From Microbacterium sp. ABRD28 (GTDB lineage: Bacteria; Actinomycetota; Actinomycetes; Actinomycetales; Microbacteriaceae): a stretch of 64,000 nucleotides of DNA. Made by a program: the position numbers and the translations under genes. The stretch covers positions 372,001-436,000 of the forward strand of contig NZ_CP031015.1 in the NCBI RefSeq assembly GCF_003850245.1, in the 5' to 3' direction. Under the pieces are notes generated by a model that worked only from the letters and a program-made list of their open reading frames with translations, had not been told where the DNA came from and ran no database searches. This document shows positions 9,427 through 13,142 of this stretch, piece after piece. The stretch's first letter is position 1; every line of letters starts with the position of its first letter.

Positions 9427-9580
9427 GGGAGGTGTGCCTGTTCTCTGCGGCGGAAGATGGCGCCGCGCAGGGTCGCGCGGCGGTCCCACTCTAATCGAGG
9501 CGGGGCATTCCCCCGAGGAGTGGGGCTCGGGCGGTGCGTGCGTCGAGGATTTGCGCAGGCCGCGCGCCTACCCTGGGGGC

Positions 9581-10177
9581 ATGCCTCGACTCCAGGCCGA
9601 TGCCTCCCCCGACCGCTGGGTTCCCGTCACCGGTTCGCTCGGATTCCGCGGGCGTCGCCATCGCAAGGCGGCGATCCGGATGCTGCTGGGCCAGGCCAAT
9701 CGGGCGATGGGCGCCGAGGAGCGCCCCGGAAGCCGCGGGATGGCCTGGATGATGAGTCAGGCGGCACCGCTGCTGATGCGTCGCGCAGACGGCCGGCTTC
9801 TGATCTGGGTGTGGAAGGCCGATCCCGAGCTCGTCGTCCTCATGGCTCAGCTGCAGGAGCTCACCCCGCAGCTGCGCACCGCGCGGGCGATGATGCCGAT
9901 CGAGTACGACGACACCGAATCGTTCTCCAACCCCCATCTGGGTGTCGGCGAGCGCCTGGTGATGGCGCTTCCGCCCGAGCCTCGCACTCCCCCGTTCGCC
10001 ACCTACACGTGGGACACCGGCACCCACCTCGTCACGCTGACGGCGGTGTGCTCCGACCGGGAGCGCGTGGGGACGGTGATCCCCTTCGTGGATGAGGTGG
10101 CCCGCAGCATCCGTGTCATCGATGACCTGACGATCGACGGCTCTCCCGAGGTCCTGCGCATCGAGCCGCGCGCCTGA
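9581..10177 (+). CDS. Conserved protein of unknown function (198 aa)
   Basis: The reading frame starts at ATG 9581. The protein is soluble, with no signal peptide or membrane helix. Its ends carry conserved-looking blocks (basic residues GFRGRRHRKAAIRMLL near 24; PFVDEVARSIRVIDDLTID near 165). I recognise no domain. It faces away from the glycosyltransferase operon. Its stop codon abuts a lone copy of the GACGGGTCG arm found in the nearby 57-bp elements. Confidence 0.65.
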   Translation: MPRLQADASPDRWVPVTGSLGFRGRRHRKAAIRMLLGQANRAMGAEERPGSRGMAWMMSQAAPLLMRRADGRLLIWVWKADPELVVLMAQLQELTPQLRTARAMMPIEYDDTESFSNPHLGVGERLVMALPPEPRTPPFATYTWDTGTHLVTLTAVCSDRERVGTVIPFVDEVARSIRVIDDLTIDGSPEVLRIEPRA

Positions 10178-10211
10178 CGGGTCGCGCTCCGGCGCCCGCC
10201 CCACGCACGCG

Positions 10212-10268
10212 CGACCCGTCGATTCCTGCGGCCCACGCGCGCGCGAGCCCACGATTCTTGACGGGTCG
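10212..10268 (+). repeat. 57-bp palindromic element, copy 1
   Basis: It begins CGACCCGTCGATTCCTGCGG, identical in all four copies, and ends TTCTTGACGGGTCG. The outer nine bases (CGACCCGTC and GACGGGTCG) are perfectly complementary. It has the same orientation as copy 2, starting 95 bp before it. Confidence 0.85.
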
Positions 10269-10306
10269 TGTCTACCAGTCTCCGCGCCCACCTACCCCCG
10301 CGCTCG

Positions 10307-10363
10307 CGACCCGTCGATTCCTGCGGGCCACCCCCCGCCGGACCGACGACTCCTGACCGGTCG
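10307..10363 (+). repeat. 57-bp palindromic element, copy 2
   Basis: It shares the first 20 bases with copy 1 and ends GACCGGTCG, giving one mismatch in the outer nine-base stem. It ends nine bases before the stop codon of the DUF559 gene. Confidence 0.85.
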
Positions 10364-10372
10364 CGCAGCTGG

Positions 10373-11284
10373 TCATCCGGGCCGCCATCCGCGATCCCGG
10401 AGAGCGTCGGACACTCGGCTCAGCACGAGGCTCAGCCGGATGCCACGGTGCTCTCTCGTCACGCGGATGTGACGCCAACCGAGCCGCGCGAGGGCGTCGA
10501 GTCGCTCGATGTCGCGGTAGTACTGCCCGTCATCGGTGCGGTGGTGGTCGCCGTCGTACTCCAGCCCGACGCGGTACTCCGGGTAAGCCAGATCGAGGAT
10601 CGCGACGAGCCGGCCGGTTTCGTCGTAGACGGGGTGGTTCACCACCGGTTCCGGCAGTCCGTGCCCCGCGGCGTCGAGGCGCAGCCGGGTCTCGCGCGGA
10701 GAGTCGGTGCCCTGGCGCACCAGCGCCTCCGCCTCCCTCAGCCGCTTCGCACCGCGGCGGCCGCTCCACTGCGCAGTGGCACGCCGAAGTTCCTCCCGAT
10801 CAGCGACCGGGTTCTGGCGTCGGACCAGCGCATCGCCGACGATGACGAGCTCTCTGACGGAGTGGTCCGAGGCGAGCTGACACCAGGCGTCGACGGGGTG
10901 CACCGCGGGCACGCCGGCCACGGCGCCGACGCGGACGGAACGATCGGTGATCTGATGTCCGCGCACGCCACGGGCCCGCATACGGGCGAGGGGTGCACGA
11001 GAGCAGACGTCCACCATCGCGGACGGGCCGCCGATCGCGTCGGCTCCGACGAGTGCGAGCGCAGCGAGGTGGCTCACCGCGTCACCGTCGCGAAGCCTCG
11101 GCGCCACCGCGCGCACGCGCTCGACGAACGACGATGCTCCGCGCGTGAAGGTACGCACGCCCTGGAACGGCGCGTCGAGGTCGCGCGCACGAAGTCGACC
11201 CGGCGACGCTCCCTCACGAAGCGCCTCGGCCACCGAGAACGGTTTGCCGACAAGGGCTGAGGGCAGAGGTTTCGGATGCGGCAT
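10373..11284 (-). CDS. DUF559 (Vsr-like fold) nuclease-related protein flanked by inverted 57-bp elements
   Basis: 303 residues. The N-terminal part (FSVAEALREGASPGRLRARD) resembles the helical start of AbiEi-like proteins. The C-terminal 110 residues form a DUF559 domain with the PD-(D/E)XK-type pattern: DSPRETRLRL, then LDLAYPEYRVGLEYDGDHH, then DIERLDALARLGWRHIRV. DUF559 is related to the Vsr mismatch endonuclease fold. The chosen start, ATG 11284, begins MPHPKPLPSALVG; an upstream in-frame extension to 11428 is basic, low in similarity and would run into a repeat element. Two 57-bp palindromes lie on each side, pointing in opposite directions. Whether this protein cuts DNA or acts on the elements is inference. 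Confidence 0.75.
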   Translation of the reverse strand: MPHPKPLPSALVGKPFSVAEALREGASPGRLRARDLDAPFQGVRTFTRGASSFVERVRAVAPRLRDGDAVSHLAALALVGADAIGGPSAMVDVCSRAPLARMRARGVRGHQITDRSVRVGAVAGVPAVHPVDAWCQLASDHSVRELVIVGDALVRRQNPVADREELRRATAQWSGRRGAKRLREAEALVRQGTDSPRETRLRLDAAGHGLPEPVVNHPVYDETGRLVAILDLAYPEYRVGLEYDGDHHRTDDGQYYRDIERLDALARLGWRHIRVTREHRGIRLSLVLSRVSDALRDRGWRPG

Positions 11285-11396
11285 CGCCCCAGCATCCCGC
11301 TGCCGGGAAGCCGGATGACGCGTCGCACCGTGCCGGTGGACAGCCCGCCGATTCGCGTCACTGTGCAGGAGTCGACGAGCACCTGGCGGCCCTGCG

Positions 11397-11453
11397 TGAC
11401 CCGTCACCTTCTGCGGCTGATCCACCAAGCAGGCCGCAGGAATCGACGGGTCG
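11397..11453 (-). repeat. 57-bp palindromic element, copy 3 (inverted)
   Basis: On the minus strand it begins with the same 20 bases as copies 1 and 2. The other end reads TGACCCGTC on the plus strand, one mismatch from the consensus arm. The arms pair over about 21 bases with four mismatches. It lies 112 bp upstream of the chosen DUF559 start. Confidence 0.85.
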
Positions 11454-11490
11454 CCCGCGCGGGGTGCTCAGGGGGGATGTGCGGGCGCGC

Positions 11491-11535
11491 GGGCATCGGC
11501 CGCGCGGGCATCGGCCGCGAGGGCATCGGCCGCGC
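11491..11535 (+). repeat. Three 15-bp tandem repeats
   Basis: The unit GGGCATCGGCCGCGC is repeated three times without gaps; the second copy ends in A. The array lies between the third and fourth 57-bp elements. Confidence 0.85.
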
Positions 11536-11545
11536 GGTGCGAACG

Positions 11546-11602
11546 CGACCCGTCAAGAAGTGCGGCCCGATGAGCCCAGCACCCGCAGGAATCGACGGGT
11601 CG
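11546..11602 (-). repeat. 57-bp palindromic element, copy 4 (inverted)
   Basis: The minus strand starts with the same 20 bases as the other copies and ends CTTCTTGACGGGTCG; the outer nine-base arms are perfectly complementary. The orientation matches copy 3 and is opposite to copies 1 and 2. Confidence 0.85.
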
Positions 11603-11645
11603 CGAGGAGGGGGAGGTGTGGGCGGGGTCGCGAGATGCGGGTGTG

Positions 11646-11780
11646 GCGCGGACGCGGGGCCGCGGAGCGGGGACGCGCGGACGCGGGGCCGCGGAGCGGG
11701 GACGCGCGGACGCGGGGGCGCGGACGCGGGGGCGCGGAGCGGGGACGCGGGGGCGGGGGCGCGGACGCGGGGGCGCGGAC
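11646..11780 (+). repeat. GC-rich tandem repeats, 29-bp unit
   Basis: Two adjacent 29-bp units (11646-11674 and 11675-11703), built of GCGGACGCGGGG and CCGCGGAGCGGGGAC, are followed by degenerate copies of the same blocks. Together with the 57-bp and 15-bp repeats this fills the 506-bp gap between the DUF559 gene and the isochorismatase gene. I see no gene in that gap. Confidence 0.8.
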
Positions 11781-11790
11781 GCCCGGGCGG

Positions 11791-12363
11791 TCAGGCGGGG
11801 GCGCGAAGCGCCGCGACCACTTCGGCGACCGGCGCGACCCGCGCGTACGCGCTCGCGAGCGCGGCGAGGAACGCCGCGTGCACGTCGGCTCCGCCGACGG
11901 CGACTCCGCCGAAGGCCAGGTCGGGCGCGGCGCAGGCATCGGCGGCGACCGTCACCTTCCAGCCGAGATCGGATGCCGCGCGCACACTGGCGTCCACGCA
12001 CATGCTCGTCATCATCCCGGCGATGACGAGCGATGCGCCGACGTGGGCGGCGAGCGCCTCGCCGAGCGGGCCCCCGTGGGAGGACGCGCCGTGGAACGCG
12101 TTCGGGTGATGCTTGACGACGACCGTCTCGTCGCCCTCGGGGGCGACCCGCGGGTCGATCTCGGCTCCCGGAGTCCCGGCCTCGAGGAAGCTCCCCGAAC
12201 CGGATGACTCGTGGCGCACGTGCACGATCGGAAGCCCGGCCTCGCGGAAGGCCGCCAGAAGCTCCGCGGCACGCTCGGCTGCGGCATCCGGATCCACCAG
12301 GGGGAAGCGTCCGCCGGGGAAGTAGTCGCGCTGGATGTCGATGAGGACGAGGACCGGGGCCAT
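11791..12363 (-). CDS. Isochorismatase-family cysteine hydrolase
   Basis: 190 residues. The catalytic triad of the family is visible: Asp in LVLIDIQRDYF (residue 9), Lys in VVVKHHPNAF (about 85) and Cys in MTSMCVDASVR (about 118). Members hydrolyse isochorismate, nicotinamide, N-carbamoyl compounds and similar substrates. No neighbouring pathway gene narrows this one down. It lies 23 bp downstream of the ion-channel gene on the same strand, so co-transcription is possible. GC-rich tandem repeats start immediately after its stop. Confidence 0.88.
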   Translation of the reverse strand: MAPVLVLIDIQRDYFPGGRFPLVDPDAAAERAAELLAAFREAGLPIVHVRHESSGSGSFLEAGTPGAEIDPRVAPEGDETVVVKHHPNAFHGASSHGGPLGEALAAHVGASLVIAGMMTSMCVDASVRAASDLGWKVTVAADACAAPDLAFGGVAVGGADVHAAFLAALASAYARVAPVAEVVAALRAPA

Positions 12364-12386
12364 CGACCCAGCCTAGGCGCGCGGGG

Positions 12387-13142
12387 TCATCGCGCGGGCG
12401 GGTCGCCGAGCTTGGCGCTCACCGCGGCCAACTGCTGGGCGAGCTCGCGCACCTGCCCACGCGTGGCCGGCTCGGTGTCGTCGCCGACAGTCGCCGCCGC
12501 GCGCTCGATCACCCACGACGACACCGTCGCCGTCACGACGCCGACCACCGCGATCCCGCCGCACATCAGCAGCACCGCCACGACGCGGCCCCACCAGGTG
12601 ACGGGATAGAAGTCGCCGTAGCCGACGGTGGTGATGGTGACGAAGGCCCACCAGACCGCGTCGCCGAAGTTCTCGATGTTGGCGCCGGGGGCTCCGCGCT
12701 CGGCCTCCAGGACGGCGAGCGCGGCGATCCAGATGAGGATCGCGGCCGCTCCGGCGCCGTAGATCGCCACACGGTTGCGGATGGCGGATCCCGCCGTGCG
12801 CTGGAGCGCCTTGACGACGGTCAGCGCGCGAAGGAGCCGCAGCGGCCGAAGCGCCGGGATCACGACGACCGCGAGGTCGAACAGGTGACCTCGGAACCAC
12901 TTCCCGCGCGGATCCGCCAGGGCCAACCGGACGATGTAGTCGACCGCGAAGACGACCCATGTGACCCCGATGACGACCCGTGCGACGGCGTAGGCCGGCC
13001 CCTGCAAGTCGGCGATCACCTGCCACGAGTACACGACGATGAAGACCAGCGACGTGATGATCAGCGGCCAATAGGTGAGTCTCTGCCATTGATCGGCGGT
13101 CAACGCCCGGGTCGCGGGTCCGCCGGTCGATGTGACGCTCAC
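12387..13142 (-). CDS. Voltage-gated-type potassium channel
   Basis: 251 residues from GTG 13142. Hydrophobic segments are consistent with six helices. An S4-like region carries spaced arginines (LRPLRLLRALTVVKALQR, about 98-115) and the pore loop has the canonical filter TITTVGYGD near 175. The C-terminus is short and hydrophilic (RGQVRELAQQLAAVSAKLG), probably a coiled coil, with no RCK domain. It passively conducts K+ across the membrane. It is divergent from the DUF2252 gene. Confidence 0.87.
   Translation of the reverse strand: MSVTSTGGPATRALTADQWQRLTYWPLIITSLVFIVVYSWQVIADLQGPAYAVARVVIGVTWVVFAVDYIVRLALADPRGKWFRGHLFDLAVVVIPALRPLRLLRALTVVKALQRTAGSAIRNRVAIYGAGAAAILIWIAALAVLEAERGAPGANIENFGDAVWWAFVTITTVGYGDFYPVTWWGRVVAVLLMCGGIAVVGVVTATVSSWVIERAAATVGDDTEPATRGQVRELAQQLAAVSAKLGDPPAR

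Follow-up and report, generated by a model that had tools for sequence, protein, structure and literature searches.

A nuclease family with an AbiEi-like half and its probable pairing with dispersed, clade-specific palindromes in Microbacterium and related actinobacteria

The window analysed here is a stretch of 64,000 nucleotides from Microbacterium sp. ABRD28 (contig NZ_CP031015.1, positions 372,001 to 436,000), in which the gene of a putative nuclease lies between palindromic elements of 57 bp. The gene belongs to a nuclease family that is very probably paired with palindromes which are specific to clades of the protein and dispersed over the genome. The initial annotation of this locus had suggested a system similar to repetitive extragenic palindromic (REP) sequences and their RAYT transposases, with an enzyme of another fold. 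As a pairing, this suggestion is strongly supported by the bracketing of homologous genes, the dispersal of the elements, their specificity, their co-occurrence with the protein and the near absence of RAYT genes.

Palindromes around the nuclease gene and its homologues

Two elements are located on each flank of the gene, those before and those after it being inverted with respect to each other. The features of the locus are as follows, with scores from the covariance model R1 described below:

10212..10268, + strand: 57-bp palindromic element 1 (R1 68.3 bits; copy is part of the model)
10307..10363, + strand: 57-bp palindromic element 2 (R1 61 bits; copy is part of the model)
10373..11284, - strand: AbiEi-like plus Vsr/EDxHD-type nuclease gene, 303 amino acids (open frame to 11428, start codon uncertain)
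11397..11453, - strand: 57-bp palindromic element 3 (R1 59.7 bits; copy is part of the model)
11546..11602, - strand: 57-bp palindromic element 4 (R1 63.9 bits; copy is part of the model)

The same 20-mer, CGACCCGTCGATTCCTGCGG, opens each of the four elements, and the last bases of each are GACGGGTCG or differ from it at one position; nine bases separate the stop codon of the gene from element 2. The positions and length of the elements, their inverted pairs, the common 20-mer and this nine-base gap had all been described in the initial annotation and were confirmed exactly. The consensus element is composed of the arms CGACCCGTC and GACGGGTCG, a six-base internal loop and then a shorter, variable stem. 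With up to three mismatches allowed, the 20-mer was found at four sites in the 64 kb, all exact and all within these elements; shuffled versions of the 64 kb contained a mean of 0.07 matches (maximum 1), and four were reached in none of 100 shuffles.

Homologues of the window protein were gathered from 149 Microbacterium genomes (120 with a match at E<=1e-30), and a second set of 59 loci, two Microbacterium records among them, was taken from a public genome collection; only part of the listed homologue places were entered, and two loci repeating others were dropped. Three of the 171 loci encode distant PF18741 proteins of the source genome with no match to the query and five of the remaining 168 lack a 200-bp flank, leaving 163. 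A matched pair was defined as a 44-68-bp palindrome on each flank, with at most two mismatches in the ten outer pairs, the two being equal in length within 1 and alike in at least 20 of 24 arm bases. Such pairs were identified at 92 of the 163 loci (Microbacterium, Curtobacterium, Agromyces and others), namely at 66/106 loci of the genus and 26/57 of the second set, related species among the 163 being non-independent draws. None of 212 other open reading frames (ORFs) of the same loci was bracketed, an imperfect control as their flanks are probably coding in many cases. When flanks were swapped between loci, 2.3% of 3,248 pairs matched; this control is free of the coding defect and contains some pairs of one class. 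A looser criterion of 18/24 bases gave 100/163 loci, 1/212 control ORFs and 5.5% of swapped flanks, while a cruder test (inverted match score of at least 15) gave 80/127 loci versus 0/141 controls, and 68 versus 1 for direct matches.

The length of the element is set per class, with a tolerance of one or two (e.g. 51, 49, 55, 62 or 57 bp). Between the end of the upstream element and the start codon the median distance is 110.5 bp (quartiles 136 and 90), and between the stop codon and the downstream element it is 16.5 bp. Inverted flanking pairs, as proposed by the initial annotation, are present at the window locus and are not clear family-wide, the inverted comparison being better at 25 of the 92 loci, the direct one at 13, with a tie at 54; the strand of the flanking copies is uninformative across the family. 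At one of the 92, a Bifidobacterium locus (L171), the bracketing repeat is not of the short kind: it is inverted, perfect and 127 bp long or more. The association may extend past the Microbacteriaceae, since homologues of Mycobacterium/Mycobacteriaceae (L178, L180, L184, L185, L186 and L188) carry matched palindromes of their own.

The window protein matches Pfam MTES_1575 (PF18741) at a score below the curated cut-off, and no match to DUF559 was found in the Pfam search. The earlier designation as a DUF559 protein should therefore be qualified. In the 43 aligned members of the family, matches at E<=0.001 were obtained to PF18741 in 32 and to DUF559 (PF04480) in 13. The N-terminal half of the window protein is predicted to adopt an AbiEi-like fold and the catalytic domain a Vsr/homing-endonuclease (EDxHD/Vsr-type) fold. 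Residues E198, R202, E242, G245, H248 and D258 are invariant in all 43 aligned proteins and D231 is kept in at least 90% of them; the conserved E198/D231/E242/H248/D258 are residues which we take to form the EDxHD motif. A 'novel Vsr-REase' domain is named in PMC3710099 after the large M. testaceum protein MTES_1575, and PMC12907096 links a Vsr-like DUF559 protein of Caulobacter to cytosine methylation.

Within the window, part of the similarity runs past the borders of the elements (10282-10327 versus 11582-11627, 46 nt, 83% complementary; elements 1 versus 2 over 69 nt at 78%), and local duplication or conversion therefore probably contributed to this cluster. At 10176-10184, directly at the stop of the upstream open frame, the element's right arm (GACGGGTCG) stands alone, possibly as the remnant of a fifth element. 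GC-rich tandem repeats flank element 4 at 11482-11537 and 11645-11805 (15-bp unit; 14/29-bp units). Of the neighbours of the nuclease gene in the window, one has no Pfam match and one is an isochorismatase.

Dispersal of the elements and co-occurrence with the protein

In the 3.27-Mb source genome the 20-mer was found in 14 places (at most three mismatches; control 0), and in 13 of them the spacing to the second arm is identical. Covariance model R1, built from these 13 copies, identified 44 distinct places at E<=0.01 (strands merged). At E<=1 the number is 51, of which 48 are 57 bp long and three 51 bp; the copies are arranged as single sites and tandem groups. By a base-composition heuristic none of 38 copies lies inside a coding-like frame, two at 1.26 Mb scoring between. 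The initial annotation had expected copies to cluster around nuclease genes; most copies in this genome lie away from those detected. The three 51-bp relatives are situated close to a second nuclease gene (0.79 Mb), on its upstream side, and a third nuclease gene (2.01 Mb) is flanked on either side by palindromes that belong to another class. A distant PF18741 protein of the same genome (L095, 3.18 Mb) has a borderline pair, CTTCGGAGC...CTCCGAAG, alike in 19/24 bases.

Two further classes were searched. For the TGTCCC class, the pattern TGTCCCACTT-N31-AAGTGGGACA with at most three mismatches was searched in the 149 genomes; up to 87 copies per genome were found (0-2 for the reversed-pattern control), and at least one copy in 57/149 genomes, some single matches being one recurring coding-looking sequence (e.g. 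in G090, G099, G117 and G128). For the GTCGCACGA class, the pattern GTCGCACGA-N31-TCGTGCGAC was searched in 19 genomes reached through loci: the five in which the motif flanks the nuclease gene hold 5, 11, 23, 28 and 42 copies, and the remaining 14 hold 0-23 (median 3; control 0-3). Genome-wide dispersal was thus seen in all three classes searched, and the dispersed copies are beyond what local duplication can explain.

A profile of 12 TGTCCC-class proteins was searched in the same 149 genomes. At least three TGTCCC copies are present in 15 of the 16 genomes with the protein at E<=1e-140 and in 10 of the 133 others (p 3e-13), and at least ten copies in 12/16 versus 3/133. At E<=1e-120 the counts for three copies are 18/25 versus 7/124, and 6/13 versus 7/124 (p 3e-4) when the 12 profile genomes are removed. 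Two protein and three copy thresholds were tried, all significant, with gene-adjacent copies included and phylogeny uncorrected. For the window's own class, the most matches outside the source genome (among the matches listed in the 149 genomes, strands counted apart) occur in G051 (36), G019 (11) and G011 (10), which are the genomes with the three closest homologues of the window protein. Genes of the RAYT type (Y1 HuH transposases, PF01797) were not found in the source genome and are present in 1 of the 149 genomes of the genus. The initial annotation had named two results that would speak against its idea, copies confined to this locus and elements equally common in genomes without the protein; the idea is supported because neither was found, the latter in one class over 149 genomes.

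Correspondence of element class and protein lineage

Arms and proteins were compared over all 4,186 pairs of the 92 bracketed loci, arms being regarded as shared when at least 10 of 12 bases agree. Between genomes, arms are shared by 0-2% of pairs below 45% protein identity, 17% at 45-50%, 44% at 50-55%, 62% at 55-60%, 72% at 60-70% and 95% at 70-80%, followed by 92% (of 13) at 80-90% and 67% (of 6) above. None of 14 pairs of paralogues within one genome shares arms. In a permutation test, arm and protein similarity correlate with r 0.19, a value as high being reached in 0/999 permutations. On the protein tree of the 92, element labels require 20 changes versus 55.2 when shuffled (0/200 as low), the labels being motifs picked by the analyst, with 29 loci labelled 'other'. 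Over 862 pairs with an identity of 42% or more, arm similarity follows residues 50-190 of the protein (rank correlation 0.65, and a partial correlation of 0.53 when the nuclease domain is controlled for) and hardly the nuclease domain itself (partial correlation 0.09 given residues 50-190). On this pattern, the putative reader of the element would lie in mid-protein, in the second part of the AbiEi-like half.

Pairing of the inner arms was examined in 184 elements at positions 11-23, where it was not demanded at detection: 44-77% are paired, versus 25-32% with the partners of other elements, with a slight lean towards pairing as the choice among overlapping candidates was weighted slightly by pairing over 22 positions. 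For the TGTCCC class, 94 elements were collected by their outer arms alone; their positions 11-22 are paired at 56%, versus 38.3% (sd 1.2) after shuffling of the 3' letters, and each position has two to four types of pair.

In G051 (M. kunmingense) the nuclease gene occupies the same chromosomal site, the nucleotide sequence as far as the element being 90% identical, and its neighbour on the left is shared with G056, G015 and G119; the gene is therefore resident and inherited in place in the clade compared. Relatives at E<=1e-10 were identified in 4 of 72,556 plasmid records (the best-scoring 33% identical) and 1 of 50,697 phages. Counterparts in G051 were found for 16 of 21 element queries from the source genome, and three element sites have no element there. 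A segment of ~630 bp present in the window's genome is missing in G051, one breakpoint lying in the middle of a palindrome (L086 3756-3812 versus L332); this could fit breakage at the hairpin centre, in a single case with the direction of change unknown.

Possible function and relation to known systems

The gene and its palindromes may belong together as a cognate system, comparable in operation to a RAYT/REPIN pair (REPIN, REP doublet forming hairpin). The AbiEi-like half would recognise its own class of palindrome, of about 50-60 bp, and the Vsr/homing-endonuclease-type half would nick or cut DNA at or near the element; repair or copying would then spread, multiply or homogenise the small element, while the gene itself would stay at one chromosomal site. 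By analogy with RAYT/REPIN and from the predicted fold, we rather favour the view that the nuclease, an enzyme unrelated to RAYT, works on the palindromes and promotes their spread. There is about an even chance that the full picture applies: an actinobacterial REP-like class made and maintained by AbiEi-Vsr fusion nucleases and multiplying palindromes without a transposase, in which the arms are read by the AbiEi-derived part, cutting is done by an endonuclease instead of a HuH transposase and the hairpin is copied by host repair, and in which numerous protein-element specificities have arisen, several of them coexisting in the same genome.

A number of observations weigh against such a role. 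By the criterion used, 71 of the 163 loci have no matched pair. At least three TGTCCC copies occur in seven of the 124 genomes with no close protein (E>1e-120): G114 (19 copies, best protein E 6e-52), G016 (19, with only a partial match at profile positions 122-305), G145 (17), G038 (5), G011 (4), G032 (4) and G024 (3). Conversely, 7 of the 25 genomes with the protein at E<=1e-120 hold fewer than three copies, six of them carrying at the gene 50-bp palindromes of the TGTCCC motif which the 51-bp pattern missed. In the window's own class, G086, with the fourth closest homologue, has no element match, and G009, with a distant homologue only, has 8. Small labels are scattered on the protein tree (GTCGCAC, 4 rows and 4 changes; ACCCGTC, 2 rows and 2 changes), and the winged helix, the expected DNA reader, barely tracks the element (partial r 0.07 given the nuclease, over a short helix region). 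The inner stem of the own class has no covariation beyond column composition (51.4% versus 53.9% shuffled; 46 distinct elements from 47 of the 48 places). The G051 orthologue matches query residues 129-307 only, yet 36 element strand matches remain in that genome. Turnover of the elements is slow, since most of those compared occupy the same places in G051, and no clean insertion footprint was established between sites of the source genome and G051.

Among the other explanations, it is unlikely that the protein is an AbiEi-like regulator whose operators are the palindromes, those at its own gene as well as the dispersed ones, serving transcription control or chromosome organisation, with the nuclease domain doing another job such as defence or mismatch repair. 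AbiEi antitoxins are reported to bind inverted repeats in their own promoter (PMC7319586), and the AbiEi resemblance of the N-terminal half, the fairly constant distance of the upstream element and the lack of own-class elements in coding-like frames (0/38, by the heuristic) are consistent with such operators. However, a matched element also lies past the stop codon, where no operator is needed; 20-87 copies in some genomes and tandem arrays are repeat-like and unlike a regulon; and the inner arms of the TGTCCC class stay complementary by two-sided changes, where a site bound at its ends would need less.

It is improbable that the nuclease genes are merely located in repeat-prone places while unrelated machinery or recombination spreads the palindromes. 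Local tandem arrays suggest recombination, and elements are numerous in some genomes with no close cognate protein, G114 being the example, but bracketing was seen in 0/212 control ORFs and 2.3% of swapped flanks, and the element class follows the protein and not the genome, by which this explanation was already disfavoured. Improbable, too, is homing or gene drive, in which the nuclease would cut dispersed elements and copy its own gene in through homology of the flanking palindromes: the gene is inherited in place in the clade compared, as its site in G051 and its left neighbour in G056, G015 and G119 indicate, genes of one genome never have an element class in common (0/14 pairs), and relatives are rare on plasmids (4/72,556) and phages (1/50,697). 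Ordinary bidirectional terminators or chance hairpins of a GC-rich genome can hardly account for the elements, which are GC-rich hairpins in non-coding-like DNA but have common 20-base ends, a set length per class and a specificity that goes with protein relatedness, and a search of window positions 9500-12500 gave no site resembling a terminator (stem plus T run).

Returning to the cognate nuclease-palindrome system, RAYT genes, with which it is compared here, are usually single resident copies. The closest known system is REPIN/RAYT (PMC3116915, PMC8266576, PMC3733652), and for REP/REPIN with RAYT (TnpA-REP, 'REPtrons') it is reported that enzyme and element groups coevolve (PMC8266576). As in REPtrons, short palindromic or doublet elements are found between genes, dispersed and also flanking the gene of the cognate enzyme, and enzyme and element coevolve. 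The enzyme, however, is AbiEi-like with a Vsr/EDxHD-type nuclease, whereas that of REPtrons is a Y1 HuH transposase, the elements are about 47-62 bp with a length set per class, and the GTAG tag at the hairpin foot of REPtrons was not seen at the ends or flanks of own-class copies read by eye. Homing endonucleases of the EDxHD/Vsr fold (I-Bth0305I) share the predicted catalytic fold and the conserved acidic and histidine residues, but the present family differs in its AbiEi-like N-terminal half, its conserved chromosomal site in the clade compared and its cognate dispersed palindromes. The AbiE type IV toxin-antitoxin systems (AbiEi antitoxin, Rv2827c), known members of which bind inverted repeats, resemble it in the N-terminal half; they differ from it in that a nuclease is fused here, no AbiEii-type toxin gene was recognised among the window neighbours and the repeats are genome-wide. 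The Vsr/VsrA very-short-patch repair endonucleases are alike in the fold of the nuclease domain, the association here being with palindromes. No description of such a system was found in the titles and abstract openings of the papers searched, all from an open-licence library.

Through the pairing, a large set of actinobacterial palindromic repeats is given a specific enzyme family, whose fold is quite different. The pairing also provides many natural enzyme-element pairs for studying specificity, cleavage and spread, and suggests what a large family of unannotated nucleases may do.
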